Origin: Cytauxzoon felis
Taxonomy: Eukaryota > Apicomplexa > Aconoidasida > Piroplasmida > Theileriidae
Reading direction: 5' to 3'
Assembly (NCBI GenBank): GCA_020283715.1
Contig: JAIQCW010000234.1
Location: 19,459-83,458 of the forward strand
DNA length: 64,000 nt
A program made the translations under genes and the position numbers. The notes under the pieces were generated by a model. That model worked only from the letters and a program-made list of their open reading frames with translations. It did not search any database and was not told the origin of the DNA. This document shows, one piece after another, positions 1,367 to 61,402 of the stretch. Positions within the stretch are counted from its first letter, which is position 1; each line of letters starts with the position of its first letter.

Positions 1367-1513
1367 CCACCTGAGGTCCAATCCAACTCTCTTCGTCTTT
1401 CAGACAGCTCTTCTCCACTCTAGATCCAATCCAACTCCTCACCACTCGCCGTGGAGGCTTCTTCCAATTACCTATCTCTAAAGAGTAGAGCCACACCCAG
1501 AGATCGTGGCCGA
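1367..1513 (+). repeat. mosaic element copy E2 (partial)
   Basis: It has the left end CCACCTGAGGTCC, a GCCGTGGAGG module and core A (CTATCTCTAAAGAG, AGAGATCGTGGC). Core B and the right end are missing. It lies between the first gene and the membrane gene. Confidence 0.85.
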
Positions 1514-1549
1514 AGTTTATATATAACCTAAGGTGTAATGGATAGATGA

Positions 1550-3192
1550 ATTGCAATATCAAGTGCGATAGCAGTGTTTGTTCTGTTCAATGAACTAGCC
1601 AAAGATTCTTCCAGTGGTCAACCAAGACCTAATGAAACTCTTAATAATGCGTTAATTAGTAGTGGCGTACTCCTTGCATCATTATTGATTATTTTTGATG
1701 TTGTTTTTGTACCTTCTGCAGAATATTCAAATATACTGCCAATAGTACTCGGATTCTTGACTTTCGGATTTCTTGCGGCAATAGTTTCCGCAGTCACCGC
1801 AGACTCTGGTATAAAGAAATTATTTGCAGGTGATACAAATGCCGGTGCGGATTGGTCTCCTATTTTAATGTTGGCGTATTCAATGGGTCTTGTTTATTTT
1901 TTACCCTCTAAAAATTTCCAATATTGGATATTGATTTTGATCCCGGAACGAAGGATGCATATGTATTTGGACCAAATAGGAGGTGGTATCATAATCCTTC
2001 CGATAGAAATCATGGACCTGCCGCTAATGAGGCTAATAAAAGTAATACTAGCCCTAGTGATTTTACTGATCATAATCATGCATGGTGGCATCTTACGTGG
2101 ATACTCACCATTCCTTCCTATGGACCATAGATCAATGTTGGAATATATTGAAGCCGGATTACAAGGCGTGGGAAATTGGCGGTTTGCTTGCCGCAGCTAA
2201 CAATCAGAATATCGATTATACAGGAAAGAAATATACGTGGGGGACAAGTGATTCTCCTAGTGGTACTTATAAAACTGTTGAAGCTAACACAGATGCAGAT
2301 AGGAAAAATAATCTATTAGTTGGAAAACTTAATGATCAAAATGATGGTGTTGCTAAGAAAGTTGGAAAAGTTTGGGGTGATTTGAAGAGTGATTGGAGGA
2401 AATTATGGAAGGATCTACCATTTGATGTACCTGTTAGGATATTATCTGTTGTTGGAGGAGTATTGGGTTTATTATTCATCATGGGGTTAATTATCACTAT
2501 ATTTGTTAATAAAAATGGGGCATTCATTGTTATTGGCATATCATTCTCCGTATTGGCTGCAATATCTATCATATCTCCTCTTCTTTCAGCAAATGGTAAA
2601 GATAAGGATAGCCTAAGGAATGCCACCGTAGCATATAAATATACCGGAATAACAGGATATAATATTAAAACTGGTACTACTTGGAATGCCACTGCCACAA
2701 ATGCTAGTAGTGGTGAAGTACCTAATGATACTCTAGGAACTGATAAAGAAATACATTTAAGGACAAGTGGTACTACAGCTCCTACGGTAGCGGTTAAAAA
2801 TGATACTGCACCTGTTCTTAAAGAGGAAGAGTTAGCTGAGATTAATATTCATTGCATTATTGGATATTGATTATCAACCTACAAATAATTTGGCGTATGT
2901 ATATGGACCAAATAGACGCTGGTATAAATATCCCAATAAAAAACATGTTGAAAGTGTTACAGATCATGCTACTCAGGCTAACAAAGAAACGGCAGGTGCT
3001 AATGATTTTACGTCGGATAATCATAAATTGTGGCATCTTACGTGGGTATTTATTATTCCATACCAATATTGCATATTTTATAATATTATAATTATGGGGA
3101 TAATTTATACTATAATTTCCCTATTAGCCGCATATATTTCCTTATATCCCCACTTTGATCCTATAACTTCACTTATAATTAAATTCCAATGA
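1550..3192 (+). pseudogene. multi-pass membrane protein, fragmentary, duplicated internal block
   Basis: Three reading frames carry clear protein. Frame one (1550-1910) has about three hydrophobic spans, including VLLASLLIIFDVVFV. A second frame (about 1924-2110) has YVFGPNRRWYHN and WWHLTW. A third (about 2130-2850) has two more spans around PVRILSVVGGVLGLLF. The YVxGPNRRWY...WHLTW block recurs at 2860-3060, 936 bp further on. No ATG opens the first frame. The first frame change falls at A5 (1910-1914), where one extra A would join the frames; an intron 1892-1953 is an alternative. The architecture recalls the Tpr/Tar multi-pass families of Theileria, but I cannot confirm membership. It may be a decayed gene, a spliced gene, or one with sequencing indels. 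Confidence 0.45.
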
Positions 3193-3214
3193 TATTACTT
3201 CCTACAGAGAGCTC

Positions 3215-3409
3215 TCCATTTGAGGTTACAAACAGTGTTCCACTAGGCGTGGATGCTTCTTCCACTTACCTATCTCTAAAGAGTATGGCCACTCCCAGAG
3301 ATCGTGACTGAAGTGTAGTGGATTGGACCTCAAGTGGAACCCGCAGCTGATCTAAGGGAAGCGGAGGGGGAAGTAATTAGAAGAGCTGTCTGCAAGACCT
3401 CAAGTTGAA
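3215..3409 (+). repeat. mosaic element copy E3
   Basis: It contains CCATTTGAGG, a CCACTAGGCGTGG palindrome, core A, an inner GACCTCAAGTGG, core B (GCAGCTGATCTAAGGGAAGC) and CTGTCTGCAAGACCTC. It probably lies in an intron upstream of the acceptor at 3490-3491. Confidence 0.9.
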
Positions 3410-3491
3410 CGCCTTGTGGATGAGATGTTATAGGACATGTTTATGGATGATGTTTAATAATTATTGTATTTGTTAAATAATGATATTATAG

Positions 3492-4223: not shown

Positions 4224-4254
4224 CCTAAACAAACGTAATGAATTGAAGTCTACT

Positions 4255-4467
4255 CCACTCGAGGTCCAATCCCACTCTGTTCCACTCGCCGTGGAGGCCT
4301 CTTCTAATTACCTATCTCTAAAGAGTAAAGCCACTCCCGGAGATCGTGGCTGAATAATAGTACTGGACCTCAAGTGGAAAACCCGTAGCTGATCTCAGGG
4401 AAGCGGAGGGAGAAGTAAAAGGAGAAGGCCACCACGGCGAGTGGCAACAGCAGGACGACCTCAGGTG
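4255..4467 (+). repeat. mosaic element copy E4
   Basis: It is a full element: CCACTCGAGGTCC, CGCCGTGGAGGC, core A, GGACCTCAAGTGG, core B, an inverted CCACCACGGCGAGTGG and a terminal GACCTCAGGTG. The left flank is C-rich and the right flank G-rich. It is intergenic, between convergent genes. Confidence 0.92.
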
Positions 4468-7318: not shown

Positions 7319-7507
7319 CCACTAGGCGTGGAGCCTCCTCTAATTACCTATCTCTAAAGAGTAAAGCCACTCCCGGAGATCGTGGTGAAGGTAGAGGTAG
7401 TGATTGGACCTCAAGTGGAACCCGTAGCTGATCTCAGGGAAGCGAAGGGGGAGGTAAATAGAGAGGCTGACGGCATGACGAAAAAAGGTGGATTGGACAT
7501 CAGGTGG
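7319..7507 (+). repeat. mosaic element copy E5
   Basis: It opens with the CCACTAGGCGTGGAGCC palindrome rather than the CCACYTGAGG end, followed by core A, GGACCTCAAGTGG, core B, GCTGACGGCA and ATCAGGTGG. It sits 40 bp beyond the rpoA stop codon. Confidence 0.92.
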
Positions 7508-7548
7508 AACGGCAAGTGAAATATATTTATTATATAAATGAAAGTATA

Positions 7549-10073
7549 TTAGTGAAATTCGTCATTAGTTGGCCCGATTGGTATTTGGTCATCATTATCG
7601 AAATCTGTTACATATTTCTGACTATAATATCCGGGTCCTGTAGGATCTTTGAAAACCCATGACGGTGGATTTATTTCTTTAAGTCTTTGTTCTTTTTCTT
7701 TTGGATCATCTGGATCATCAAACATAGGTTTTCTAGGTGTGCCATCATCGTGACATATTTGCGATGCACGTTTTTCAAATAAGATCTGTTGATCTAATGT
7801 GTCCTGCCATTCAGCTAATTGTTCTTGTTTAGCCAGAGGTGAATCTGGATCTATACTATACTGCCTACGAACATCCTTTCTATAGTACCAAAGTTGACGT
7901 TGAGATACACGATCCTTAGGCGTCAAATAAGGATTCCATGGTACATTCTTATGTCTAAAGAAATTTATATATAATCTTATTAACAAACAAATGAAATGTT
8001 CAGTCCACCTGATATTACAGTCCTACTCTCTTCATCCTGCCGTCAGCTTTCCACCTGAGGTCGTCCTGCAGACAGCTTCTCTATTTACTTCCCCCTTCGC
8101 TTCCCTGAGATCAGCTACGGGTATTCCACTTGAGGTCACATCACTTTACTTTCGCCACGATCTCCGGGAGTGGCATCACCCTTCAGGGATAGGTAAATGG
8201 AGAAGCTGTCTGCAAGACAAAGAGATGTAGGTTGGACCTCGTGTGGATGTGATATTATTCGACTTACAGTTCTGGGTGTACGAGTTCTGCTTTGGTGATG
8301 GCTCTTTTTGCGGATTCAATTGCAAAGTAATCATAAGAATAATTGGATTTTAATGCTTTTAATGTTCTTTCGAACCAATGTAATAATATTGATGATGATT
8401 TAAGTAATGCTAATCTAGGTGTCATTGATCCATCTGTATGTAATTCTAATGTTACAATTTCGCTTGTATTATTTTCATTTATACCTCTACGTTCCCCATT
8501 AAATGCAAATATTTGTACAGGATAACAATATGATGGGAAATGTATAAATCCATCATCTGTTATATCACGATTTAATGAATCTGGACCATGTTCTGTTATA
8601 ACATAATTAGAAATATATTCAATTTTAACATCCATTGTTAAATATGATTCTGGTGATAATGTACATATATAATGATTTTTATTTATTATATCTATTTTAT
8701 TATCATCTTTAGTACCACTACTTGAACCAATAATATCTTTATTATTTATATTATTATTTAATTGTATATGACCAGCTACTGATATTATAGGACCTTTTAT
8801 TCTTAATCTACCTATAATTGGATTATCAAATGTAGCTGTTTCAGGTACATTACGAAATATAATACCAGTTAAATTACGCGCTAAATCAAAAAAATCTTCA
8901 CGCATACCAACTACAGAACAAAATTCATTCTCCATACCAGGTATACGTAATGCTGTTATTCTACCCGAACCCAAATTCCTTTTTGATACTCTACGTAAAC
9001 TATTCAATAATACAGGTATAATATCAGTATGTAATGAATGAATATAATAAAATGTATACGCCTTCCCATTATGATATCTTATTGGCTGTATCTGCTTAAA
9101 CTTAAAACCATAACTCTTAAATTTTACCGTCTATATTTCATTATAATATCTTTAATTTATAAAGCATTCCACCCGAGGTCCAATCCTACTCTCTTCGTCC
9201 TCCCTCTTCTTCCACTCCACCTGAGGTCGTCTTGCAGACAGCTCTTCTAATTACCTATCTCCAAAGAGTAGAGCCACTCCCAGAGATCGTGGCGGAATTG
9301 TAGTGATTGGACCTCAAGTGGAAGTGGAATATCCGCAGCTGATCTACGGGAAGCAGAGGGAGAGATAAATAGAAGAGGCTCCACGCCTAGTGGGAAGACC
9401 TCATGTGGAGATGAAGAGTAGGATGAAGAAAGTTGGATTGTATCTCAGGTGGAAGTAGCTTAAGTGTAAGAGTCCGATAGACAATACTTTAGTTATGATG
9501 TTCTTTGGTCTGGTTGATGTATAAACTAACCTTTGATTCATCGACATGTTTGGTTTCTGACTGTTTGCGTGTTTGTTCCTAAGATGTGTAAGGGTTTATA
9601 AAGTGTATAAATTTACATTAAATTTCCCAATTTCTTTTAGAATTTCCTTTTGTGTATAGTGCCTTGGTACATATTCTTCTTTTGGTTTATTATCGCCTAT
9701 GAATTCTACAGCCCCTATGTATTATATATGGAATTTCTAGTCAATTTATAAACACACATGGTGGTAAAGGATAATTTGATAGTGGCGCTCCATGCTCAAA
9801 TGGGAATCTTCTTTTATCTTGGTGTTTGGGCTCATCTGTACTGGATGAGATGGGTCTGACATTAAAATCTTTGAAATTCTTATTAAATGGTTCAATAAAA
9901 TTTATGTTATTGTATTTGTTGCGATTTGTATTAATTAATGCGATATTATGATCAAATTTGAAGTCATTATGCTCCTGGATAGGATGGAATCTACCTTGAG
10001 CGAGTGATTGACAATATCCATACTTCAAAGTGTAAAATATATAGAATTTTATAAATTTTAACCATTTAGACAT
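7549..10073 (-). CDS. rpoA: apicoplast RNA polymerase alpha subunit, nuclear-encoded
   Basis: Five exons in coding order: 10073-9758, 9714-9617, 9578-9531, 9130-8268 and 7954-7549. All junctions are GT-AG, the phases close exactly and the product is 576 residues. Exon 1 begins MSKWLKFIKFYIFYTLKYG, a signal-like leader followed by a basic Asn-rich stretch, which fits apicoplast targeting. Exon 4 is a bacterial RpoA N-terminal domain: an HTD...LLNSLRRV assembly motif (E. coli HTLGNALRR position), then NLTGIIFRNV, GPIISVAGHI, HYICTLSPESYLTMDVKIE, FPSYCYPVQIF and VTLELHTDGSMTPRLAL. The last 136 residues are Pro/Asp-rich, and I see no helix-hairpin-helix alpha-CTD. Introns 3 and 4 each hold a mosaic element. 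Confidence 0.85.
8005..8245 (-). repeat. mosaic element copy E6 (rpoA intron 4, sense to host)
   Basis: It lies inside the 313-bp intron 8267-7955. Order on the plus strand: CCACCTGATATTAC, CCTGCCGTCAGCT, CCACCTGAGGTCG, CCTGCAGACAGCT, core B', CCACTTGAGGTC, core A', AGCTGTCTGCAAGAC and GACCTCGTGTGG. Confidence 0.92.
9169..9452 (+). repeat. mosaic element copy E7 (rpoA intron 3, antisense to host)
   Basis: It lies inside intron 9530-9131. It has CCACCCGAGGTCC, a second CCACCTGAGGTCG, CTTGCAGACAGCT, core A, core B with TGATCTACGGGAAGC, CCACGCCTAGTGG and a terminal ATCTCAGGTGG. Confidence 0.92.
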
Positions 10074-11082: not shown

Positions 11083-12348
11083 ATGGAGACCATAAATAAC
11101 GATCATATATGCCTAAATGATAAGGAACTTGAAGAATTTAGAACTAAACAATGCCCATTATACATTAAAGGGCTATGTGCTAACAGTACAAGATGTAATA
11201 TGTCACACAGTGAGACATGGCCACGTAGAAATCCATCCGTGTATAAATATGAATACAAGCTATGCCCAAATATACAATTTTTCCGTATGGATAATAAAAT
11301 GCAGTTACATGGTAAATGCCATTATGGTAGGAAATGTAGATTCTCACATTCTAAAGAAGAACAATTATATCATCCAGACTTATATAAGACCAGATTCTGT
11401 CTAAACTATCCAAACTGTAAAGGATATTATTGCCCATTTGTACATGAACATGATGAATTACGAAATTTAAATAAAAAAATCAACATTAAACGCAAGGGTA
11501 GAAAAAATTTTGATAATATTTCATTGAATTCCACCATTTGTTCACCCTATTCATCACCACTTTCCAACGAGTACATCTCTAGTATTAAGCCTGAGGATGA
11601 TGACGAGGATGATGAATATGTAGTGGATGGAAATCTCATTGATTCTTACAATGAAACAGCCTTTTTCGACACGAGAGATGATGTAACCGATCAAGGAATC
11701 AACTGGGAGAGTATATTTGCCACGACACTCAAAATTAGCGACCCTAATACACATTCATGGTCCAATTTATTCAATGATGCAAGGGTGTCTAATGAGTTTA
11801 CAAGTGACCAGATGCCCTTACCACGCATCACTGTAAGCTCTCCTGTGTCAAAGGTTACATCTAATGTTCCACCTGAGGTCGGCATTGAAGACAACTCTTC
11901 TGATTACATATCTCTAAAGAGTAGAGACACTCCCGGCGATTGTGGATGTACACCCGGAGATTATCTCAGGGAAGTGGTGGAGGAAATAAATAAGGAAGAT
12001 CCATGCGATGAAATGGAAGTCAAGGAGATGACCTCAAGTGGAGGACCATCGGATAAACAACATCTAACTCACTTCGCTCCTTCTGGTGGTTGTTATCCGA
12101 CGTTATATTGTATGGAAAATTATAAGTCCAACTCCATTTGCATATCATCAACTTCAATATCATCAGTAGATTACAATGAAATGTCAATGGTAGAAGAAGA
12201 TGATAACGACTGGTTCGAGACAGTGATAGAGGCTGGTTTAAAGTTGTTGTGTGAAGAAGAGGAAAAAGAGTCTAGATGCGATGATGGAAAGAAGACGAAA
12301 TATAATTTAAAATCTAGTTATAGAAATAGATCACTTTTAAATTTTTAA
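11083..12348 (+). CDS. CCCH zinc-finger RNA-binding protein with in-frame element
   Basis: I start at the ATG at 11083 (METINNDH), because the open frame upstream has no ATG; this gives 421 residues. Three CCCH-type fingers lie in the first 130 residues: CPLYIKGLCANSTRCNMSH, CPNIQFF...CHYGRKCRFSH and CLNYPNCKGYYCPFVH. Tandem CCCH fingers of this type usually bind mRNA and govern stability or translation. The C-terminal two thirds are acidic and look disordered. Residues about 263-320 are a diverged copy of the mosaic element in its coding frame (PPEVGIEDNSSDYISLKS and later MTSSGG). It is divergent from rpoA, with the VPS13-like gene 260 bp downstream. Confidence 0.85.
   Translation: METINNDHICLNDKELEEFRTKQCPLYIKGLCANSTRCNMSHSETWPRRNPSVYKYEYKLCPNIQFFRMDNKMQLHGKCHYGRKCRFSHSKEEQLYHPDLYKTRFCLNYPNCKGYYCPFVHEHDELRNLNKKINIKRKGRKNFDNISLNSTICSPYSSPLSNEYISSIKPEDDDEDDEYVVDGNLIDSYNETAFFDTRDDVTDQGINWESIFATTLKISDPNTHSWSNLFNDARVSNEFTSDQMPLPRITVSSPVSKVTSNVPPEVGIEDNSSDYISLKSRDTPGDCGCTPGDYLREVVEEINKEDPCDEMEVKEMTSSGGPSDKQHLTHFAPSGGCYPTLYCMENYKSNSICISSTSISSVDYNEMSMVEEDDNDWFETVIEAGLKLLCEEEEKESRCDDGKKTKYNLKSSYRNRSLLNF
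11869..12041 (+). repeat. mosaic element copy E8 (exonic, in frame, diverged)
   Basis: CCACCTGAGGTCG, ATATCTCTAAAGAGTAGAG, CACTCCCGGCGATTGTGG, CTCAGGGAAG and GACCTCAAGTGG remain, but the spacers have drifted far more than in other copies. The reading frame is intact. It looks like an old, accepted insertion. Confidence 0.85.
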
Positions 12349-12608: not shown

Positions 12609-15600
12609 ATGTTACAGTATATTGTACATCAATTAATCAAGGCATTTGGTAAAGATGTATTGGAGCAATGGATACCTTTGGATAGGATATGTATAACATC
12701 GATAACAGATCCTGAAATACATTTGTCTAATATACCTGTACCTGATATACTATTCCAGACTTATTCACTGCCATTCGCAATTGTAAAGTCTAACATCTCA
12801 AGAGTAGTGATTAAATGTCCATGGACTTCATTTTTTAAAAAGTTTGAGAAGGACACATTAAAAATTGACATAGATGTTGTTGAACTGGTATTACGCATTA
12901 AGCAGTTGGATGAGTTGAGCGAGTCTTCATGCAGAGAACTATATATTAGTAGCAAGGCCAAGAAGCTGTCAAAGTGGTTAAAGGCTAAATCGTCGATAAA
13001 GTTATTGAATAGAGCAAATAATAGCCGCAATAATGTACAAAAAATACTAAATGCTCTAAACATTGAAATCAAGAGAATAGAAATTACATTAATTGACGAT
13101 TTACTATATAAAACACCATTTTCAGTGATCATCAAAGGCAATAATATCAAAGGGAATGGAATCGATCCAAATGATAGGAAATCGAATGAAAATTGGATTA
13201 ATGATAACGACGTACGCGGACTCTCAAAGTCACTCTTAACCGCATTATCGTTTCACTCCGATGACGTTAGTATATACTTTATAGAGTATAGAACCCAAAC
13301 TAGAAATGTTACTAAGTCATCGTCTACCGAATGTTCATACACCTCCACTAGTCATGCAGATCCACCTGAAGCTGTAACCTTGTCTTCCACTAGGCGTGGA
13401 GCCTCCTCCAATTACCTCCCCATAAACGGTAGATCCACTCCCGGAGATCGTGGCAAAGGAGAGGGTAGTGAGGTAACCTCAAGTGGAATACCTGGAAGCG
13501 ATCCACGGGAGCTGGAAGGGAAAGTAAATAGAAGAGCTGACGGCAGGACTGACCTCAGGTGGAAAGACGAGGAAAGGATCCAAAGTGAAAGAGAAGATAG
13601 GGTTGATATCTCATTGGATGGACGTATAAGTCGTGACACTTCATCGGATGATGTATTTTATTCTCCATTATCGTCGGAAGATGAAATTTATCTTGGTAGT
13701 GAAGATGTGAATGTACTGTTAGATGTGAAGAGTAGTGTATTTTGTTCATATTGTACTGTTGGATGTTGTGATTATGGTAGTGACAAAATCGATTATGAGA
13801 AGTTGAACATAAAGAGTGATGCTTATAGATATTTATCTTTGCTTAAATTACCATGTAATGTATATAAATTGACCCCAGATTTGGGTATAAAATTGGATAT
13901 TGTGTTTAAATTTTGGTCTATTAATAGTTTATTTGTTAATGATATAAGGCATGATTCATATCGTGATTTGTATATTGTATTATCATCTAATAGTGAAAAA
14001 ACCCCATTGAAATTAACTTTTACGAGTACTAGTGTGATATGTTTGTACAATTTGATACGTTTTATGCAGATATTATCCTCATTTAAGGGGATGTCTTTAT
14101 TTGATTTAAATAAAACACCCAATATTGAAGATTCCATTAAATATATAAAATTAATTAACACTCGTAGTATATTAAAATCCCCATCTAATGATGACTTGGA
14201 ATTCATTAAAAAATTTTGAAGAATCTACCCCATTAAGTATAATCATTAAATTAAGAGAATTGTCTACAACTCATAAGTGGAATAGTAATGTACATGAATT
14301 TTTATTCGGTTCATGCTGCGATTTTGATAAATGTGGGGGTAGTGGTAATGTGGGGAAAGATGAAATTAATCTCTTGGATCATAGCCACTGGTTTACAAGC
14401 GAATTTAACATGCATATAATCATACCTGATGTCGAATTTCATATTATTGCATTGGAAAATATGAAGTCTCATAGAGGACCTGAATGTGATGAACAGAGTG
14501 CACGATCTAATCGTAGATGGAAGCGAAGACGTGAAAGTAGAATTGATGAACCCTCAGGATCTCATAACACTACTACAGCTTCCATACACCCTTCCTTTGT
14601 CATCAAGTCAAGCGTATTCCTTTTGAAGTCATCAACATTTCTACCAAAGAGGTACACTATGGGGATTAATTTCATCAGGCCTATAATCACATTAGGTACA
14701 GTCAACCTCGATTCTAAAATTAATGAAAATAAAACATTCATCAACTTTTACATCAATAATTATAATAATACCCTATTTATTTACCCCGACATTATGTTCA
14801 ATAATGCATCACAATTTTTTAATGAATATGGGGTTTTTTATCATGATAAACTGGATGAAGATGTGGGGTTAAGGATTGTGATTAATGAGTATAGAAATTT
14901 TGTAAAGTATATATTGATAGATGTACCTAATATAAATATAATATTATCATCATTGATAAATTACCTTGAGGATTTTAATAAAGGGTTATTAATAAGTATA
15001 ATGAATGATCTGTTGACTCTAAATATGTTAAATTGTAGGGTTAAATTACACCACATAAATAATGATACTGTTATTATGAAGATGATAGATTGGGCTAAGT
15101 ATAGTAATAGAAGTATAACTAAGTTACCATTAGTGGATATCAACATCAAGTTGTTTATATCGACAGATAGTTCAATCGGTACAGATGATGAATTCAATTT
15201 CGATAATGCAAACGATATCTACGGTATCAATGATGAAATTCTCAATAAATGGGAATACTGCCATGATATCATAGACCCATTTGAATCCAAAAATACATCC
15301 AAAACACATTCTATTGATGATCCAACATTGTCTTCCACCAAGAATACCACCGTTCCACCTGAGGTCCAATCCAACTCTGTTCCACTCGCCTCCACCGTTG
15401 GTCTTGCAGACAGCTCTCCACCTGAGATTACAACCTCTGATCCCACTAGGCGTGGAGCCTCTCCCAATCACCTATCTCTAAAGAGTAGAGCCACTCCCGG
15501 AGATCGTGGCGGAAGTGAGGATGTATCCTCAAGTGGAATACCCGCAGCTGATCTCAGGGAAGCGGAGGGGGAACTAAGTAGAGAGAGCCTCCACGGCGAG

Positions 15601-18600
15601 TGGAAAGACATCGGTGGTGAAGCTGACGGTAGGACGACCTCAGGTAGTACATCAAGTGGAATGGATGTGGATAGGGCCTTACGTGGAGGAAATAATACAT
15701 CTGTGATGGACTCTACATATAATATGGATATGATTAGGGTATGGTATAGGAACACATGTAGATTGAGACGTAAATATGATTATGATCCCATGGTTTTGGT
15801 ATTTGATTCTATTGAATATTTTTATGATGGCTTTGGTGATATTGATATTAAATTTAACGATTTTAGGCTTAAGTTCAATAATTCTATTGATATATTCATT
15901 GTTAATAATTTCCAATTTTTAAAATCTAATAATATGAGGCGATGTAGGGTAAATTATCTCTTGTTTACGGTGTATGATAAATTTATTAATATATTATTAA
16001 AATATAATAATCTAATGTCATCAATATTATATGATATTATGGGGTTATTTAACCGCATACGGTATGTGATTGATCAATTAATAAGGATAAAACGTATACC
16101 TATTAAATTAGATGATGATGGTACGGAATTATTCAAATGTCTAACATTTCATGATTTAGATATTAACAGTATAAAAAACCCCATAATTGTTAAAAATGCG
16201 GGTGATGGGGATATATTATTGGTGAAGTTGAAGAAGATGATAATATATTATTTGAATGAGTATGTATATATAACGCGTTTTTATAATATTAAATTTGAAA
16301 TTATAAAAAATGATGAAATTAAGACATTATTACTAAATATTAATGACGCGCGCGTCATTAAATTTATAAATTCAGCTGATAATAATAAGCGCGTCATTCT
16401 TACAAATAATCTCAATACACTCAAAAATAATAAGATCATACCCAACAATACAAATCAAAACCAAATTAATATCGAATACCAACTCTCAAACACCAATAAA
16501 AATATCAAAATTGATATCAGAAAATTACATATACTCCTAGATCTACAATACACAATACTCACCATCAAATTCATACAAAATCTCATTAATACAATAAAAC
16601 CATTTGAACATATCAAAACAAGCAATATAATAAACAATTCATCCTCCACTACATCCGAATTTACCTCTACCGTTCCACTCGCCTCCACCGAGGTCCAATC
16701 TACCTCTCCTTGTCTTGCAGACAGCTCTTCCAATTACCTATCTCTAAAGAGTAGAGCCACTCCCGGAGATCGTGGCGAAGGTAGTGAGGATGTAACCTCA
16801 AGTGGAGTACCCGCAGCTTATCTCAGGGAAGCGAAGGGGGAACTAAATAGAAGAGCTGACGGCAGGACGACCTCAGGTAGATCGGCGAGTGGAAGAGATG
16901 AAGGTAATGATCGTGATGTTCCTTCTGTTAAGATGAGTATGATATTATATGATATATCTGTAAATTATGATGGTATGGGTTTGAGATTTGAGATGTATAG
17001 TATATTTGAATTGGTATATGATCCAATGAACATAATATTGGATATGCCTAGGGTTCATGTTACATTAATCAATGATTATGTTTATAATTTATTGACATTT
17101 TGTATATTAAATATGAAATTAAATTCAGATATATTTTTCGATTTCAATTTATATGATAATACTAATTTAATTATCGATCTTAAATGTAGCCATTGTGCAT
17201 TATGGGGTTATGATTATATAAATAATGGGGTTGATGGAAATGAAATTGATAATGGGGGTAAGAATATTTATATGAATAAGGATCCTTATAATTTATTATT
17301 GGGTTTATTAAATGAGGATTGGTATAGTCAATTAACTCATGCATTATTACCATCATGTATAGATAAAAATACAATATTGATACCAATAATATTAACACAT
17401 ATACCAAAATGTGTAAGATTGATACCATTATTAAATAAACAATGGATCACTAATTGGTTATCACGTAATTATCCCCATATTAATTTAAATTATGGGGAAA
17501 TTGCAAATAAAATTATAAATAATATTAAATTTAATAAAAATATTAATAAACGAGATTCAATTACAATTAAAATACAATCAAAAATCATTAATAATATTAA
17601 ATATATTACAGGTAATATCAATATCAACGACTATATAATCTCATTACACCCTAGCATTATTGTCAAATATATCAACACCATTTCTAAAACTACATTACAT
17701 AAATTAGAACATGATCTCAAACTTATCAAAAAATATATCAAATATATAAAAAAATCATATAAATACAACCAAGTAAATTTTAATGAATCTACCATTCAAA
17801 GGTATAAAACCACAGATACATTATCCACCATCAGATCCCTGTCCAGCGCCATCTCTATTCCACCTGAGGTCCAATCCGCCTCGCGTTCTCTTGCAGAGAG
17901 TTCTCCACCTGAGGTCAGTCCTGCCGTCAGCTCTTCTCCACTTGAGGTCCAATCCAACTCTCCTTCTCTTGCAGAGAGCTCTTTTAATTCACTCCCCGTA
18001 AACGGTAAAGCCACTCCCAGAGATCGTGGCAAAGAATCCGAGACGATCAATGGGAGTCGAGGGGAAGTAAATAGAGAAGCTGTCTGCAAGACGACCTCAG
18101 GTGGAACGGCGAGTGGAATGAAGAGTAGTACTGGACCTCGAGTGGAACCCGTAGCTGATCTCAGGGAAGCGAAGGGACAACTAAATAGAGAAGACACCAC
18201 GCCTAGTGGGAAGACCTCAAGTGGAGAAGCTGTCTGCAAGACGACCTCAGGTGGAACATTGGGTGTAGAGGGTTTGGTGGTGGATATATTATTGAATATA
18301 GAGGAGGTGGATATGATGATACCTTATAGATGTGATATAATGTTGGAGAATAGTGTACCAATTAGTATGTTACCTGAGGATATATATATTATGAATAGAT
18401 ATTATAAGAGACCTAATGATGATATGAATGATTATAAGATATTATGTATATTACAATTGGATAGATTATATTCGAAATTTTCATTTAAATCAAATATAAT
18501 AGGTCAATATTGTATAAATAATATTAATGAATTATATAATATTAATAATATAATTATAAATATATTTAAATATCAAAAATAGTATAAAATTTTTTAATGA

Positions 18601-29784: not shown

Positions 29785-29887
29785 TTTGTTAAACTACAAT
29801 AATTAATCTAGTTAATTAAATATCTCTATATACGAATTATAAACACTCTAATTCACGTCTAGCTTACTTTGTCTTGCAGAGAACTCT

Positions 29888-40795: not shown

Positions 40796-41148
40796 CCACC
40801 CAAGATCAATCCTACTCTTCATTACACTCGCCTCCTCCTGAGGTCCTGGCGTCAGCTCTACACTCGAGGTCCAATGCTACACTTCTCGACCATCTACCTG
40901 AGGTTATAACCTCTGTTCCCACTCGCCGTGGTGGCCTTCCTTATTTACCTCCCCTCGGATTCCCGTAGATCATCCTCGGTATAATGTCTACCCGGAAGAA
41001 TGTGATGAAGTATTGACTAAACCTCAAGTGGAAGTGGAGCCCGTAGCTGATCTACGGGAAGCGGAGGGACAACTAAATAGAAAAGCTGACGGCAGGACTG
41101 ACCTCAAGAGGAGAGCTCCATGCAATGGGAAAGATGGATCTCAGGTGG
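40796..41148 (+). repeat. mosaic element copy E29 (composite, core A lost)
   Basis: Three left ends of varying quality, CCACTCGCCGTGGTGGCC, a reverse core-B-like piece (TCCCGTAGATC), the nested ACCCGGAAGAATGTG, AACCTCAAGTGG, core B (TGATCTACGGGAAGC), GCTGACGGCAGG, GACCTCAAG and ATCTCAGGTGG. It is intergenic, between convergent genes. Confidence 0.9.
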
Positions 41149-44606: not shown

Positions 44607-44737
44607 AATTTATAATAATCAATATCATATTTTATATTAAACACTCCAATACTCACCCATATATAAACATACACCTCGTAACACATCAATACAACCTTTG
44701 TTCCACCCCTACCATAACTATACCTCTTCTTCCACTT

Positions 44738-45007
44738 CCACCCGAGGTCCAATCCACCTCTCCTTCTCTTGCAGACAGCTCCCCACCTGAGGCTACAACA
44801 TTCCCTTCCACTCGCCGTGGAGGCCTCTTCCAATTACCTATCTCTAAAGAGTATAGCCACTCCCGGAGATCGTGGCGGATGTGTAGGTGATAGTGATTGG
44901 ACCTCAAGTGGAACTGGAATACCCGTAGCTGATCTCCGGGAAGCGGAGGGGGAAGTAAATAGAGAAGGCTCTCTGCAAGAGGAATACAAGGTTGCAACCT
45001 CAGGTGG
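44738..45007 (+). repeat. mosaic element copy E31
   Basis: CCACCCGAGGTCC, CTTGCAGACAGCT, CCACCTGAGGCTAC, CGCCGTGGAGGCC, core A, GGACCTCAAGTGG, core B (TGATCTCCGGGAAGC) and AACCTCAGGTGG. It is intergenic. The left flank 44641-44700 has 20 C and 2 G; the right flank 45061-45120 has 9 G and 2 C (hand counts). Confidence 0.93.
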
Positions 45008-45243
45008 AAGAAGAGCAGAGTTGGACATCGGGTAGTGTAGAAAAGATTTCAGTTATGTTTATCTTTTGGGTATTTGGTACAAATAGAATATGTTGTATTA
45101 TTTATATTTAAATTTAATTGTAAATAATTAGACTTGTTGATTTTGTATTGTTCAATTATTACTACATAATTTATTATATAATGTGGAATGTTTAGTAATG
45201 TAGTTGTTATATATAGAGTATATATTATTATTAAATTTATTTA

Positions 45244-46550: not shown

Positions 46551-46739
46551 AATTGTCTTGCAGACAGCTTCTCTATCTACTTCTCCCTCCGCTTCCCTGA
46601 GATCAGCTGCGGGTAGTCCGCTTGAGGTCCAATCACTACACTTCTGCCACGATCTCTGGGAGTGGCTTTACCCTTCAGGGATAGGTAATTGGAAGAAGCC
46701 TCCACGGCAGTGGAAAATAAGGTTGTAACCTCGAGTGGA
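46551..46739 (-). repeat. mosaic element copy E32
   Basis: CTTGCAGACAGCT, core B' (CTTCCCTGAGATCAGC), CCGCTTGAGGTCC, core A', CCTCCACGGCAGTGG and AACCTCGAGTGG. It lies between the first and second antigen genes. Confidence 0.9.
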
Positions 46740-46824
46740 GAGCTGAGGGCATGACGATAGATAGTTGTAATAGAATATATATGTGTAATAAATATTAAAA
46801 TAATTTTTAATAAAAGGAAATTGC

Positions 46825-49462: not shown

Positions 49463-49600
49463 TGCATGGAGCCCCATCTATTTAGTTATCCCTCTGCTTC
49501 CCTGAGATCAGCTACGGGTTCTCCACTTGAGGTTACATCTACTATACTAGAGGTTTCGTTCTTCCGAGTTAACACCCTCTGTTCCTCCGGGTTGGGAATC
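49463..49600 (-). repeat. mosaic element copy E33 (partial)
   Basis: A degenerate left part (CCATTGCATGGAGCC), core B', CCACTTGAGGTTAC and the nested module (TTAACACCCTCTGTTCCTCC) that appears in reverse in E25. Core A is absent. Confidence 0.8.
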
Positions 49601-49800: not shown

Positions 49801-52800
49801 CTACTTCTGTTTGATTTTTTGATGTCTTTTTATTGGATCCGTATGTAATTTCTTTTTCTGGTTTGGTTCATATTGAAGAGCACATGTTTGTTCTGAATAT
49901 TCAAGAAGGACTGGTGGTGGTCTAGCAATAATATCGTATAATATATTATCAATTTCAACTTTGTCTACCTCTTCTAACCAATCATCTGCTATAGTACATT
50001 TAAACGATTTATTCTCTATATTTAAATCCAGATATTCTATTGGTATCGAATTTTTTACCCTTAAGTTGCCACTTGGTACATAATCTGGACATTGAAGTTT
50101 GTTTGTTTTAAATTTTTGTGGATATGTGTAAATCTTAAGATCTATATCATTATTTTCATTCACGTTTAATTTTTCCAATACAATAGAATTGTTATCATTA
50201 TTATTACATCTACTAGATGTCGATAATCCTTTATTTAATTCCCCACCCACCTCCAGTGGGTCAGTTATGGGTAATATACCTGAAATCTTATCATATGTTC
50301 CTTCTGAAGTATTCCCACTAGGCAATCCACCTGAGTTTAGATCTACTAGACCTTCCTTTCCACTCACCGTGGAGGCTTTTCTGTTTAGTTGTCCCTCCAG
50401 CTCCCGTGGATCACTTTCGGGTTTTCCACTTGAGGTTACATCCAACACATCCTTTCCACTCGCCGTGGAGGCCTCTATATTTATCTCACCTCGACTCCCA
50501 TAAATCGTCTCGGATTCTTCACCACGATCTCCGGGAGTGGCATTACCGTTTACGGGGAGTGAATTGGAAGAGCTGTCTGCAAGACGAAGTGAGTTGGATT
50601 GGACTTCAGGTGGAGTGGTGGGAATATCTTCGCTGGATATATGATTGGAATTGTTGTATAAAGATTTGTTATTAGATGTATATGATTGTTGTTGATCATC
50701 ATGATTAGATGAATAAAATGTATTGGATAATGTATTATTAAATGATGATTCATTACATCTTTTGTTGGTATAAACATTCATATAATTATTAGATAATATA
50801 AAACATCTAATTGAATAACTTGGTTTAGATACTTGTATCTTTTTATAATCACAAGTAGCATATTTATAATTTGTTAGATTACAAATTGATCTAACTAATA
50901 TTAAATCACCTGGATAAACTCTATATTCACGATCTAATAATATTAAATTTGTATACCAACTTTCACATTGACCAAATCTTGTACCAAAATGTTCACCTGG
51001 TCTAATTTCTACATCAATACCAACTAGAAATCCACAAAAATCACCATATTGTATTATTTCAAATAAATTTTCAAAATGTTGACACATTTGTGGTTCCATC
51101 CATTCTTCAAATTTTAATTCTTCCATTGGTAACCAATAATTACATAATGGTAAATTATCAATTTTCATACCAGCACTTTGTAATAATTTATATGATGGAC
51201 TAATAATTGTCATACCAATATCTGTTGATGCTTTATTTAAAATATTTCTATGATCTGGAAATAAACAAGGTATAAACATTGTAGATGCACCAAATGGTAT
51301 ACTTTTTACACTTTTTATAAATAATTCATTCTCAAATAAAATTCTACGTTGTAAATCTAAAAATACATCAGCTACACCCTCTTGTGATGCAAAATCACCT
51401 AATATTTCACTAATTATCATATCATATGGTGGATTATCAGGTAATTTTATATCCATAACACCTGATTTATAATCTGAAAAATATTTAGTCTGATTAAAAA
51501 TAAACTGTTTAGAATGTGAATTAAATACATGTATAATATCATCAGTACCATAAGCAGCCATCAATCTACTAGCTAATCTTGATGAATATGTTGAAACTTC
51601 TAATGCATCAATTGATTTTGCACCCGCATTTCTTGCATTCATAGCTAATACACATAATGGACCTGTACCAATTTCTAATATTGTCTTACCATGACAATAT
51701 GGATTAGGTATACTAATATCTACAACAACTCTAGAATCACGTAATGTATCCGTAGTTTCTATACTACTAAATGTTGAATATTTTAAATTTGTATTTAATG
51801 ATAAATAATGTAAATCAGAATTATTATTTACATTTTTAATCGCTTTCTCCGATTTAATTCCTTCCGAATCTCGGAAATTTTCAATACAATCAACTAGTGT
51901 ATCAGGATTAATAAAGGAAATTCCACCTGAATCATTATTAGTTATCTTTAAATCTTCATTAATATTATGGCTACTTTCATTCAATGAAGGACCATAATCA
52001 TATAAACCTTTATATAAAAATTTTGTATCACTATTTTTAGATACAGTTGAAATATTATTAAATTCACCCTCATTATATATTGTATTCTTTATACCTTCAT
52101 TCCCATTCTCAGATGTATAACAAAAATCTTCCGTATCAGAATCAAAACAACTGGTACTTACACTAGTAGGATCACTAAGCGTAACAGGAATAGGTATAAA
52201 TGATCCTTTAACAACTGAACTATCCTTTATGACATTCGTTGTCATAATTCCATTATCTTTATATCCAGTCCAAAATATTGCTGTACGATAATAATGGATT
52301 CGGTCACTATCAGCGACCATAGATTCATGATTATCTAATGTATACTGATTGCAAATACTAAGTGTAGTTGGCTCTTTACCATCGATAAAATGTGTATGAT
52401 TAGCAATATTTTTACTAATAAAGGAGTTTATTTTGTCCCTTAAAGTCATTTTCGATGCCCAAACAGGCCTTCTATAATCAGTGGACACATCTTCAAATTT
52501 CCTTTTTAATTTTCGGTTAACAACAAACAATCCCAAACCATCAGAAACTTGTGCATTATCTACTAAAGATGAACTAGGACTATTTGATAAATTAGTAATG
52601 GGGGTATTAAAACCTGATTTTTCTTTACTTTTTCGCGTTACTTCCACCATTTCATCTGTTATAGATCCAATGGTTTTAGCCGAAATTTGCTGTCTATCCA
52701 TACCATATGTTTTAACTTCTTTAATCGTATGTGTAAAAGTGTTGGAAGATTTTATGTTGTTAGGTTTCCTAATCTTTTTAGTGGTCTGTTCTTTCTTGTC

Positions 52801-59320: not shown

Positions 59321-59472
59321 AATAATAATTAATTCCATAATCTTATAATCTATATAATAAGACATAATATAAATCTATTATAAAATGTATATTTCTGAAC
59401 ATAATACACATTGACAACCTCCACACAAGACAAGACAGTATACACTACCCCTTTGTTAATGAAAATGCTAAA

Positions 59473-60168
59473 ATGCATCATGGAAATTGTGGATGTAAAT
59501 TAGAAAGTGAATTACAGACGAGTTACATTTGTTTGAGGAATTATTTAAATATACCTGGTATACGAGTATATAACAGTAGCGTTGTAAGTTTAAATTTATA
59601 AAATCTCCGTAGAAGGTATAAAGGTATTCTTTATCTTCTATTTGATTATTTTTATTCCATTATATTATCTCTATATTCTATATTATAGGATTCTAATGAT
59701 GGCGGAATAGTATTCAAAGAATATAACAACCGTTTGAGCCCAGAATTTATAACTAGTGACGAAGACGAATGTGAGTTGTTGTTTAAGGTACCGTTTTTAC
59801 AAGCTTGTGATATTGGTAATTTCCTTTTAATTAACGAAAGCTCATGTCAACTTGAAGTGAAATTATATGTTAATCGCTCTGAAGTAGATTTTAGTGATAT
59901 AGAAACTGTCAATCCTACTCAAACTTTAAATATACCACCAGATTTTCATGGATCTTTCATTCATACACTCAACATTACTAAGTTTAAAAATACGACATAT
60001 CTTACTGTATATTTAAATTCCAAAGGTCCAGAGGTCAAAATCAAATACATTGGTCTACGAGGGAAACCATTACAATATTATACAGGCGTTTATAATACTA
60101 AATATGAAGTTGTCCCTTCTAATAACCAAAATATTGAGAAAATAGATAAGAATCTTTGTATATCATAA
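59473..60168 (+). CDS. PITH-domain (DUF1000) protein
   Basis: Exons 59473-59583 and 59689-60168, phase 0, 196 residues. It starts MHHGNCGCKLESELQTSYIC, follows the PITH order with NNRLSP...DEDECELLFKVPFLQACDIG, LYVNRSEVDFSDIE, a hydrophobic strand and FKNTTYLTVYL, then IKYIGLRGKPLQY and YEVVPS. PITH domains occur at the C-terminus of thioredoxin-like TXNL1 and as stand-alone proteins; they associate with the proteasome or act in cytosolic quality control. No thioredoxin domain is attached here. Confidence 0.83.
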
Positions 60169-60333
60169 CAATTTGATTAAAAGAACAATAATAAAGTTAT
60201 GTAAGAATAAAATAATTAAATATAAATTTGTGAGCAACAGTATATTCTATGATACATAATAGAAAAGGGAGTCTTGCACATGTATAAATGGATCTAAAGA
60301 TTATTTGTAATTATAGAATAGGTTGAAACTTCA

Positions 60334-61104
60334 ATGAATTTAATTCATATTCAATTGATTTTATCTGTCAATTTCGCTTATAGTTTTTTAATACCCTCTG
60401 GGAATTCACGTTGTTTTTGTATATATGGTAAGAATCCCGATTATGAAAAAAAGAAACTTGAGCAAAGACGCAGTAAAATATTTAAACGTGTTTTACCACA
60501 AGAATCTGATAAATTAGATCGTCAGATTAAAAATCTAATAAAAACTCATACTAATTATCAAATTTCCGCATTTGGTCATAGATTATCGCAATATCCTGGA
60601 GATGGTGGTGAGATTCCAAATTTGAATAGTGCTACAGATAAAATTAAATGTGTTAAAAATTATTATCGTTTTTTAACTAAAATTGATAATAATAATGAAA
60701 ATTTTAAATTATATAAATCAGATGAAGATAAATATGCTAGACTTATAGCAGAAAATCCAAGAATAACTTTTGGTATATACGAAAGTAAAGGAGCAATATT
60801 AAATGATGTCTTCTATAAACCTTTACCAGATTTTTTCCCCGATGAAGAATTTAAAGAAACTATTCGTAGAAAAATTAAAAGAAAGAAATTCAAACTTGAT
60901 ATGGATAACATTACAAAAAGAACTAGAGGTTATCATGGATTAAAGTCAGAAGTCTTATTTAGTAATCTCAAAAAAGAATATTTAGATAATTTAAGAGAAA
61001 TAGAAATAGCTACCAAAAGTGGTAACTTCAGTCAGTATAATCCACTGTTTAAAATCAGAAGAAAAAAAAACACAAAAATCACATGCATCACTAACAAAAC
61101 TTAA
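60334..61104 (+). CDS. secretory-pathway or apicoplast-targeted protein of unknown function
   Basis: Single-exon ORF of 256 residues. The N-terminus MNLIHIQLILSVNFAYSFLI is a signal peptide. It is followed by Ser/Arg/Lys-rich sequence (PSGNSRCFCIYGKNPDYEKK), which would suit an apicoplast transit peptide. The mature part is strongly basic, with RRKIKRKKFKLDMDNITKRT and a Lys-rich end, and could bind nucleic acid. No family is recognised; an organellar ribosomal protein is one possibility. Confidence 0.6.
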   Translation: MNLIHIQLILSVNFAYSFLIPSGNSRCFCIYGKNPDYEKKKLEQRRSKIFKRVLPQESDKLDRQIKNLIKTHTNYQISAFGHRLSQYPGDGGEIPNLNSATDKIKCVKNYYRFLTKIDNNNENFKLYKSDEDKYARLIAENPRITFGIYESKGAILNDVFYKPLPDFFPDEEFKETIRRKIKRKKFKLDMDNITKRTRGYHGLKSEVLFSNLKKEYLDNLREIEIATKSGNFSQYNPLFKIRRKKNTKITCITNKT

Positions 61105-61220
61105 ATAGATGATAATATTTATAAATTAAGAATATATATGCTAAATCTCATCACATCTAGTATAATAACCTCCTCTCCAATTCTATCATGTCTTCACTTC
61201 TCATTGTAGACAGCTTTTGT

Positions 61221-61402
61221 CCACCTGAGGTTACAACCTCGCGTTATCTTGCAGAGAGCTCTTCCAATTACCTATCTCTAAAGAGTAGAGCCACTCCCGG
61301 AGATCGTGGCAGAAGTGTAGTTATTGGACCTCAAGTGGAACCCGCAGCTGATCTAAGGGAAGCGGAGGGGGAAGTAATTAGAAGAGCTGTCTGCAAGACG
61401 AA
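61221..61402 (+). repeat. mosaic element copy E35
   Basis: CCACCTGAGGTTAC, CTTGCAGAGAGCT, core A, GGACCTCAAGTGG, core B (TGATCTAAGGGAAGC) and AGCTGTCTGCAAGACG. It is intergenic, between convergent genes. The left flank is C-rich and the right flank strongly G-rich. Confidence 0.93.

Follow-up and report, generated by a model that had tools for sequence, protein, structure and literature searches.

The window, the 64,000-nucleotide stretch of piroplasm DNA analyzed here (Theileria/Cytauxzoon group; tick-borne-type parasite), contains a VPS13-like gene and 33 GC-rich imperfect inverted repeats, which we call elements (Table 1). We defined an element as a cluster in which two or more of four motifs (A, B, T, and Q) occur. 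A scan of one strand of the reversed, uncomplemented sequence yielded no copy of any motif. Our cleaned set holds 133 elements in 314 kb, which consist of the window and three other stretches (C4:1-120000, C45:1-80000, and C8:1-50000). All are whole consecutive contig pieces that we chose and did not draw at random.

Table 1. Elements and VPS13-like gene of the window. Left and right skew refer to the two flanks of each element.
Feature	Position	Strand	Left skew	Right skew	Remarks
Palindromic element	502..683	- (A core on -)	-0.04	+0.47	motif cluster
Palindromic element	1366..1509	+	-0.04	+0.13	
Palindromic element	3288..3408	+	-0.24	+0.58	
Palindromic element	4254..4404	+	-0.26	+0.32	
Palindromic element	7366..7508	+	-0.33	+0.10	
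Palindromic element	8034..8218	-	-0.05	+0.26	
Palindromic element	9168..9409	+	-0.30	+0.34	
Palindromic element	11868..12042	+	-0.03	+0.13	inside ORF 11026-12345
Palindromic element	13434..13563	+	-0.22	+0.43	inside ORF 12579-14216
VPS13-like gene	14176..26807	+			three open stretches; carries nine elements, whose flanking sequence aligns with proteins of T. equi and Babesia
Element in frame, VPS13-like ORF	15354..15635	+	-0.13	+0.45	homologues without residues between flanks
Element in frame, VPS13-like ORF	16712..16881	+	-0.69	+0.47	homologues without residues between flanks
Element in frame, VPS13-like ORF	17859..18255	+	-0.58	+0.58	E12 of the initial annotation; compound, 13 motifs; homologues without residues between flanks
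Element in frame, VPS13-like ORF	19174..19488	+	-0.74	+0.60	homologues without residues between flanks
Element in frame, VPS13-like ORF	20282..20614	+	-0.33	+0.48	homologues without residues between flanks
Element in frame, VPS13-like ORF	21251..21528	+	-0.57	+0.82	E15 of the initial annotation; homologues without residues between flanks
Element in frame, VPS13-like ORF	22783..23061	+	-0.46	+0.51	homologues without residues between flanks
Element in frame, VPS13-like ORF	23666..23954	+	-0.70	+0.38	homologues without residues between flanks
Element in frame, VPS13-like ORF	25375..25537	+	-0.57	+0.52	E18 of the initial annotation; homologues without residues between flanks
Element	29871..29974	.	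0.00	+0.11	no recognized A core
Palindromic element	31375..31549	-	-0.25	+0.41	
Palindromic element	33009..33312	+	-0.41	+0.26	
Palindromic element	33773..33956	+	+0.02	+0.35	folding example
Palindromic element	34477..34726	-	-0.19	+0.56	
Palindromic element	35867..36123	+	-0.48	-0.09	right flank without G skew
Palindromic element	36619..36803	+	-0.35	+0.16	
Short element	39621..39684	-	+0.10	+0.47	left flank without C skew
Element	40833..41112	.	-0.55	+0.44	no recognized A core
Palindromic element	43592..43747	-	-0.40	+0.50	
Palindromic element	44737..45008	+	-0.49	+0.58	
Palindromic element	46555..46755	-	-0.37	-0.12	right flank without G skew
Element fragment	49496..49534	.	-0.36	+0.12	2 motifs
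Element inside ORF	50425..50614	-	-0.28	+0.49	ORF 49804-53037 (- strand), core likewise on -
Palindromic element	61220..61399	+	-0.41	+0.38	

A dispersed inverted-repeat family with in-frame copies

The elements are 39 to 747 bp long. In the sampled DNA they occur at a density of 4.2 per 10 kb, with a median spacing of 1.5 kb, and occupy 10% of the sequence. Genome-wide there are 2,550 occurrences of their 18-base core when one position is left free. This inverted-repeat family has dispersed through the piroplasm genome, and its copies include some that are read in frame inside ORFs. Terminal inverted repeats are present: the T and Q motifs face outward on both sides of the element, with 4 exceptions. 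In the folding example of Table 1, 40-nt arms (33771-33810 and 33906-33945) are 80% complementary, and the predicted DNA fold of 33760-33962 has an energy of -38.3 kcal/mol (z -4.4), which none of 200 shuffles equaled. The median z of the hairpin potential across 136 elements is only -1.68, with 60 of them below -2.

Long ORFs contain 32 of 143 elements. The core lies on the ORF strand in all 29 single-core elements of this kind, and inside ORFs the A core is in phase 0 in 33 of 33 cases and B in 26 of 26. These elements keep one orientation and one frame, as do the Rickettsia palindromic elements (RPEs), palindromic repeats of about 150 bp that encode a conserved peptide and often lie in frame in unrelated protein genes (PMC10969869, excerpt). 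The piroplasm elements share with RPEs a foldable inverted-repeat structure and in-frame insertion into unrelated protein genes, a likeness in how they work and not a claim of membership. Unlike RPEs, they have a eukaryotic host, number in the thousands and not the tens, and are often longer or compound. A search with the element peptide, limited to proteins of similar length, gave no match.

The elements also resemble MITEs, being short, non-autonomous-looking, dispersed, and abundant, with inverted-repeat arms. The excerpted text of a survey of 64 apicomplexan genomes reports no class II transposons, with MITE candidates dropped as likely false positives, and no transposable elements in C. 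felis, T. parva, T. annulata, or T. orientalis (PMC9141347). The elements show an RPE-like habit, that of in-frame coding palindromes, in a eukaryote; they make up about 10% of the DNA sampled, although the survey of their phylum reported no class II transposons.

Reversal of GC skew across the elements

The initial annotation had proposed, from five 60-base hand counts, that the flanks are C-rich to the left and G-rich to the right of almost every element. The counts are exact (15 C and 2 G at 17641-17700; 4 C and 18 G at 18301-18360; 0 C and 21 G at 21661-21720; 18 C and 3 G at 25141-25200; 5 C and 24 G at 25561-25620), and the generalization is borne out. Of 130 elements, 125 had a higher skew in the right flank than in the left, namely 33/33 in the window and 92/97 in 250 kb of other contigs; the remaining 5 did not flip. 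Three elements were excluded from this test because a flank met another element or the sequence end. The mean skew at 30 to 200 bp was -0.285 on the left and +0.279 on the right, values that describe a sample and not a genome-wide average, because the 314 kb cover 3.6% of the genome. A strict flip, with the left negative and the right positive, was seen in 105/130 elements (28/33 in the window).

Random element-free sites (n = 12,000) had a mean difference of -0.047, and none of 10,000 resamples attained the observed 0.564. GC-rich element-free sites, compared with the first element set, gave -0.017 at a GC content of at least 0.38 (n = 860) and -0.023 at 0.42 or more (n = 178). An equal flip at random GC-rich sites, which had been named in advance as evidence against the proposal, is therefore not seen (-0.017 and -0.023), because neither GC-rich nor random element-free sites flip. 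An insertion preference for junctions between C-rich and G-rich DNA gains no support here, since neither kind of element-free site flips on average. It would also require about 500 bp of pre-existing mirror skew at nine places in one conserved gene, at synonymous sites, and we give it next to no credence.

As had been claimed, the flip does not depend on the orientation of the element: it was found with 49/50 cores on the plus strand and 49/49 on the minus strand, as well as in 12/12 elements of the long form and 5/5 with several cores. It was less frequent among elements without a recognizable A core (only 10/14). Nor does it depend on gene orientation; it is seen inside and outside ORFs, including at 104 of the 110 elements that no long ORF spans. 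Transcription of the host gene fits poorly as the source of the skew and was rejected, in agreement with the initial annotation, since it cannot yield opposite signs on the two sides of an element.

GC skew that is C-rich before and G-rich after a site is familiar from promoters, R-loops, and replication origins. The elements have the same order but differ in reach and density, in being anchored at an edge, and in not depending on gene context. An origin-like polarity was suggested initially. A replication origin at every element would match the skew if it were bidirectional and its leading strands were rich in G+T. However, there are about 4.2 elements per 10 kb, at a median spacing of 1.5 kb, and the skew is anchored to element edges and ends about 280 bp from them. 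Between neighboring elements it reverses, the first half of the gap being more positive than the second in 26 of 28 gaps of 160 to 700 bp, and the flip is not sustained over kilobases to a terminus zone. We consider the origin explanation hardly credible.

Reach and substitution type of the halo

The skewed flank, or halo, extends about 250 bp outward on both sides, and past 280 bp from the element edge almost none of it is left. At 30 to 80 bp from the edge, it was 0.31, 0.38, 0.34, and 0.37 for mean element lengths of 174, 250, 348, and 506 bp, respectively. In all four length classes it fell to 0.07 to 0.09 at 230 to 280 bp and to between -0.01 and 0.06 at 280 to 330 bp. At the same distance from the center (260 to 330 bp), long elements had the stronger skew (0.331 versus 0.209). 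The halo is therefore a function of distance from the element edge and not from the center, with a constant reach for lengths of about 170 to 500 bp. It is fainter near short remnants (rho with element length, 0.37). It also correlates with folding energy (rho -0.44, first element set), but after correction for length the hairpin z-score had no significant relation to it (partial r -0.13, p 0.13). Element length remained related after correction for z (0.25, p 0.003).

On the outward strand, read 5' to 3' away from the element, G rises at the expense of A, and C falls toward T. This bias is alike for both element orientations, both sides, and coding and noncoding DNA. We placed it in host DNA by using synonymous sites in codons aligned to T. 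equi and Babesia. In homologue-anchored codons of the VPS13-like gene, third-position skew at 30 to 120 bp was -0.79 on the left and +0.96 on the right. At 30 to 250 bp in this gene, NNY codons ended in C in 26/110 cases on the left, 1/116 on the right, and 21/221 far away, and NNR codons ended in G in 2/54, 22/39, and 14/102, respectively. Under a two-transition equilibrium model, which these estimates assume, the per-base excess above the background G/C-to-A/T rate beside elements 150 bp or longer is, for A>G, 0.26 in noncoding flanks and 0.47 at third positions and, for C>T, 0.27 and 0.79, respectively. Both transitions probably operate on one strand, the outward one. Within the motifs there was no outward A>G excess (pooled, for every 1,000 bases of consensus: 17.6 A>G, 22.3 T>C, 20.5 C>T, and 40.4 G>A), a comparison confounded by subfamilies and the mismatch limit.

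The flanks might instead be decayed outer arms of formerly longer elements, so that the skew would be element sequence and not host mutation. The first 25 bp past the outermost motif have the highest outward-strand G (0.275) and may still be element, and the complementarity of an element's own two flanks exceeded the 99th percentile in 4/132 elements (1.3 expected). However, own flanks were generally no more complementary than flanks of different elements (70/132, p 0.34). The skewed flanks in the VPS13-like gene align to T. equi and Babesia proteins, with the skew at synonymous sites, and all three homologues lack residues between the flanks at every one of the nine insertion points. On these alignments, the decayed-arm reading is contradicted for coding flanks, and we regard it as highly improbable overall.

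Possible sources of the outward bias

We favor, with a probability of about 0.4, low-fidelity DNA synthesis outward past the hairpin as the process that makes the halo. The single-stranded element would fold into a hairpin or cruciform and block DNA polymerase. Synthesis past the element, or restarting at it, would continue outward for up to about 250 nt in a low-fidelity mode, roughly the length of one Okazaki fragment or nucleosome. G.T wobble errors (dGTP opposite T and dTTP opposite G) would write G and T into the new outward strand. Forks from both directions would yield identical polarity, because the strand extended beyond the obstacle always points away from it. The halo would be maintained through evolutionary time as long as the element remains intact.

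The polarity fits nascent-strand errors and damage to an exposed outward strand alike. In E. coli and yeast, changes associated with indels are transversion-enriched (PMC3114760), unlike the transitions inferred here, which counts against low-fidelity synthesis. So do the lack of an outward A>G excess inside the motifs and the loss of the z-score correlation once length is taken into account. In the repeat-induced recurrent repair (3R) proposed in that study, a repeat persistently increases substitution around it, possibly through error-prone polymerases. A common feature here is that changes cluster at the repeat and decay from it, as an edge-anchored compositional halo that includes synonymous sites. 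Short inverted repeats also boost local mutability, chiefly in the spacer (PMC5737083, excerpt). Unlike either process, the halo is strongly strand asymmetric, transition-type, and edge anchored, and its reach stays at about 250 bp.

The main rival is outward transcription from each arm, which we think unlikely but a serious contender. The exposed non-template strand of an R-loop or bubble would gain C>T and A>G, the template would be shielded, and G-rich RNA would stabilize the R-loop. The polarity fits, and because nearly all T and Q motifs face outward (4 exceptions), promoters borne on the arms would be edge anchored. Genes too have a sense-strand G+T excess, with a third-position skew of +0.195 away from elements and of +0.25 to +0.31 over the opening 300 nt of ORFs. 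However, third positions of genes reach only +0.14 to +0.31, versus -0.57 and +0.63 in halos. The elements would therefore need to out-transcribe genes, even inside coding exons, because gene third-position skew stays below halo skew. The divergent transcription suggested initially survives as outward starts in each arm; a divergent promoter or R-loop starting at the element center was rejected, because the profile follows distance from the edge.

Human meiotic breaks, like the elements, show a mirror-image substitution asymmetry about a defined site (PMC7615360, excerpt). Left of the break, C>N and A>N changes fall on the forward strand, the exposed one; a hairpin-gap model with changes on the exposed strand would thus give the opposite sign to the halo. 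These breaks differ further in their 2-kb flanks, off-center peaks, and C>G component (same excerpt). A double-strand-break hotspot with resection mutagenesis, which predicts the same forward-strand C>N and A>N changes on the left side, was rejected: to the left of the elements C is in excess, and A>G and C>T lie on the reverse strand, a polarity opposite to that of resected breaks, as the initial annotation had recognized.

A break within the element might also be repaired by SDSA or break-induced replication across it, the new outward strand being error-prone or left single stranded. A nascent strand crossing the element has the right polarity, and rice transposon excision raises flanking mutation (PMC5023962, excerpt). 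A truncated element at C4:48797 is joined to a 335-bp inverted copy at 99% identity, by such repair or by misassembly. However, if the break lay at the hairpin tip, the halo should decay from the center and not from the edge. Mutagenesis by plain resection is of the opposite polarity (PMC7615360, excerpt), and the rice effect spans 3 kb (PMC5023962, excerpt) versus about 0.28 kb here. This explanation seems to us quite improbable.

A halo created once, at insertion, is more doubtful still. The outward strand, covalently linked to the incoming element and single stranded after 3'-to-5' trimming, would be mutated; edge anchoring would follow naturally, and the polarity matches the insertion intermediate proposed in rice (PMC5023962, excerpt). 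It would demand a great many substitutions in a single event, with NNR codons ending in G going from 14/102 far away to 22/39, and rice insertion sites show only a slight increase (same excerpt).

If low-fidelity outward synthesis is right, a short selfish repeat redirects mutation in its neighbors besides occupying sites, with the strength given by those NNR codons in one conserved gene. The elements would offer more than 100 replicates here, and thousands by extrapolation, of one natural experiment with a common edge and reach, and would allow measurement of how long a mutagenic DNA-synthesis patch is and which polarity it has. It is possible, though we would not lean on it, that the selfish palindromes, thousands in number, work as directional mutators of this eukaryotic genome. 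They would write low-fidelity patches of one Okazaki length outward on both sides, put G and T into the outgoing strand, reset nearby host codon usage and amino acids, and leave a natural genome-wide record of how long repair or lagging-strand patches are and on which strand they lie. For annotation, codon usage, skew, and phylogenetic signal beside elements should not be treated as neutral in this genome.

Two smaller observations concern contig C4. The element at C4:48797 is truncated just beyond its core, and the inverted copy fused to it is that of C4:22099-22433; misassembly is the alternative to break repair off a foreign template. One pair of paralogous genes was compared, C4:59352 versus 83311.

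An inverted-repeat element family and its in-frame copies

The genome surveyed comprises 8.62 Mb in 181 contigs. We recognized elements as clusters of at least two of four motifs, allowing up to four mismatches in A (GCCACTCCCRGAGATCGTGG) and B (GTAGCTGATCTCAGGGAAGC), one in T (GACCTCARGTGGA) and two in Q (GAGCTGWCKGCARGAC). A scan of one strand of the reversed sequence found none of these motifs. Genome-wide, the 18-base A core matches at 2,550 sites when one position is left free (1,242 plus, 1,308 minus), against 0 in the reversed genome. A 314-kb sample, made up of the window and parts of contigs C4, C8 and C45, held 133 elements of 39 to 747 bp (4.24 per 10 kb; 10.1% of bases) with a median spacing of 1,524 bp. 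Extrapolation from this sample gives roughly 3,650 elements in the genome. These 133 elements are the cleaned set, in which split long forms were merged. An earlier first set of 143, with 12 long forms each split in two, underlies the ORF contexts, the codon analysis of the VPS13-like gene, the GC-rich control, the hairpin z scores and the decay fits; the splitting mostly adds noise.

Around a single A core, the minus strand carries the Q (37 in A+ and 28 in A- elements) and T (43 and 71) motifs on the left side, and the plus strand carries Q (35 and 43) and T (78 and 34) on the right; four occurrences (two Q, two T) break this outward rule. T and Q thus almost always face outward, which makes the element an inverted repeat, though an imperfect one. 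By our reading of the consensus, the B half, reverse-complemented, resembles the A half. One example element has 40-nt arms with 80% complementarity, and its DNA fold was better than all 200 shuffles (z of -4.4). The median fold z across 136 elements of the first set was -1.68; therefore, hairpin potential is common and often modest.

The 12 long forms in the sample have a different center: a conserved, AT-richer segment of about 190 bp (GATATCTCAATGAATATAAATTGGAATGAAG...) replaces the A-core center. They lie at C4:46671, 62167, 67675, 69428, 115878, 118060 and 35594 and at five places in C8, and none was recognized in the window. The long form could be a fuller or parental form of the element.

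Within genes, 32 of the 143 first-set elements lie in a long ORF. The core of single-core elements there is on the coding strand in 29/29, and A (33/33) and B (26/26) occurrences are all in phase 0. Survival of the stop-free frame only would be the expected remainder after selection. In-frame palindromes are known in Rickettsia (PMC10969869), and the piroplasm elements share this insertion habit. The VPS13-like protein aligns to T. equi (best named match, 29%), Babesia caballi and one unnamed homologue, and is interrupted by nine elements. At all nine insertion points, the three homologues have 0 residues between the flanks; 19 to 71 of the approximately 73 codons within 250 bp were anchored gap-free on each side. 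The best named match of the TTL protein is also T. equi (44%). An element peptide (residues 800 to 910 of window ORF 49801-53037, minus strand) searched against 5.8 billion proteins gave 461 candidates, limited to 0.55 to 1.75 times the query length, none with an E value of ≤0.01.

Rfam scanning of 94 kb (the window and regions L015, L016 and L020) gave no RNA family for the element; its single match was a snoRNA. FAINT domains, carried by two proteins of the window, are typical of Theileria secreted families; together with the T. equi matches, they indicate a piroplasm of the Theileria/Cytauxzoon group. A non-coding AT-rich repeat, within which no element motifs were found, may represent another family of repeats or an RNA gene that has been duplicated.

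Other features of the window
Feature	Position in window	Strand	Remarks
FAINT-domain (DUF529) protein	4553-6232	-
FAINT-domain (DUF529) protein	27352-29784	+
Non-coding AT-rich repeat	30007-30283		84% identity with C4:57047-57322; another occurrence near C4:42932
snoRNA match plasmodium_snoR20 (RF01596)	36892-36976	-	46.5 bits; close beside element 36619-36803

The skew flip and its probable mutational signature

The initial annotation had described a flip of GC skew at almost every element, C-rich on the left and G-rich on the right, and its five 60-base C and G counts were all exact. In the flanks at 30 to 200 bp (cleaned set), the mean skew was -0.285 on the left and +0.279 on the right. After 3 of the 133 elements were dropped, the right value exceeded the left at 125 of 130 elements, with 33/33 in the window and 92/97 elsewhere (46/48, 16/17 and 30/32 by contig). 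T-A skew had the same sense at 27, 35, 13 and 31 elements of the window and these three contigs, respectively. The flip was independent of core orientation, as had been claimed (49/50 and 49/49), and was less regular in elements without a recognized A core (10 of 14). Random element-free sites gave a mean difference of -0.047, and 0 of 10,000 resamples reached the observed 0.564. Element-free GC-rich sites, where an equal flip would have spoken against the annotation, gave -0.017 and -0.023. Left and right skews of individual elements showed an r of 0.10 (P = 0.26; first set), so the two flanks are not strongly coupled.

The flip also held outside genes, at 104 of the 110 elements that no long ORF spans and at 87 of 93 with neither flank in such an ORF. 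Its sign follows the side of the element and not the gene: third positions, read in gene sense, had a skew of +0.63 downstream and -0.57 upstream of elements, against an ORF background of +0.195. At anchored codons of the VPS13-like gene, third-position skew at 30 to 120 bp was -0.79 on the left and +0.96 on the right, and +0.21 beyond 400 bp. Among two-fold codons at 30 to 250 bp, NNY codons ended in C in 26/110 cases on the left and 1/116 on the right (far, 21/221), and NNR codons ended in G in 2/54 and 22/39 (far, 14/102). Therefore, A>G and C>T are both raised on the outward strand, which runs 5' to 3' away from the element. Composition at these synonymous sites suggests that this halo is mutational.

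We estimated excess rates from a two-transition equilibrium at elements of at least 150 bp, in units of the background G/C->A/T rate. The excess in non-coding flanks was 0.26 (0.22 to 0.30) for A>G and 0.27 (0.16 to 0.39) for C>T; at third positions it was 0.47 (0.39 to 0.57) and 0.79 (0.32 to 1.59). In plain hydrolytic deamination, cytosine is expected to far outrun adenine, and the near parity of the two transitions slightly favors wobble misinsertion. The neighbor context of the A>G bias (first set) gave odds ratios of 1.1 to 1.9, highest before A, with no clear polymerase signature. Substitutions polarized with one paralogous gene pair were uninformative: at 150 to 300 bp, T>C and G>A changes numbered six each, A>G four and C>T one, with transversions in addition.

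Shape of the halo

Curves anchored at the element edge were nearly identical for mean element lengths of 174, 250, 348 and 506 bp. They ran at 0.31 to 0.38 at 30 to 80 bp, 0.30 to 0.41 at 80 to 130 bp, 0.19 to 0.27 at 130 to 180 bp, 0.11 to 0.21 at 180 to 230 bp, 0.07 to 0.09 at 230 to 280 bp and -0.01 to 0.06 at 280 to 330 bp. Shorter remnants were weaker (0.17 and 0.23 at 30 to 80 bp). At the same distance from the center, long elements were stronger (0.331 versus 0.209). The halo therefore has no point source at the center, and the acting agent is either the whole element or something in each arm. Skew reversed between near neighbors in 26 of 28 gaps (means of +0.22 and then -0.30), and 20 of the 28 had both expected signs; split long forms had inflated this count to 35/37 in the first set. 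Decay fits (first set) were not decisive between an exponential (AIC, 23.4) and a plateau-shaped curve (20.1).

Repair of breaks across the element, which we rank third and consider improbable, would call for center-based decay, and this is absent. In its favor, one element, at C4:48797, breaks off just beyond its core, and an inverted copy of a gene piece that lies 26 kb away follows directly (335 bp, 99% identity). The stretches involved are C4:48724-49131 and, for the gene piece, C4:22099-22433; the junction is either the scar of a recently repaired break or an assembly error.

Candidate sources of the halo

Parts of the phenomenon are already known. Mutation clusters occur close to repeats (PMC3114760), mutation at breaks can be strand-asymmetric (PMC7615360), and mutations arise in the DNA flanking excised transposons (PMC5023962). 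No class II transposons were reported in a survey of 64 apicomplexan genomes, in which MITE candidates were discarded (PMC9141347). Searches of open-licence papers turned up neither this piroplasm element nor any family of elements flanked by a mirror-image halo of transitions that is anchored at the element edge.

We tentatively favor outward low-fidelity synthesis past the element as an obstacle, with a probability of roughly 40%. Any synthesis that crosses the element and continues has the outward strand as its newly made strand. A polymerase might finish, restart or switch there, with forks arriving from either side, and such an obstacle would yield the observed polarity, edge anchoring and bounded reach. 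However, the hairpin score was not significant once length was fixed (first set). The motif interiors had no outward substitution excess, which also counts against a process within the arms. Human meiotic breaks, which show asymmetric changes on the exposed strand (PMC7615360), also speak against this choice.

Outward transcription from the element arms would give the same polarity and edge anchoring as obstacle synthesis, and gene sense strands here carry the same type of skew. However, that skew is far weaker (+0.14 to +0.31), and we therefore rank arm transcription second, as an unlikely source. Replication origins, host transcription, a central promoter or break, decayed arms and target-site preference were rejected or lowered. 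A longer palindrome through flank-to-flank complementarity was also rejected, since own pairs scored above other pairs in 70 of 132 cases (P = 0.34).

tRNA genes, considered as a second type of obstacle, were too few, at three in the scanned 250 kb of contigs other than that of the window. Across the 314-kb sample, the sense strands of ORFs that reach 900 bases or more have G- and T-rich third positions, and the skew is stronger, at +0.25 to +0.31, in the first 300 nt. We read this as a milder, transcription-type asymmetry.
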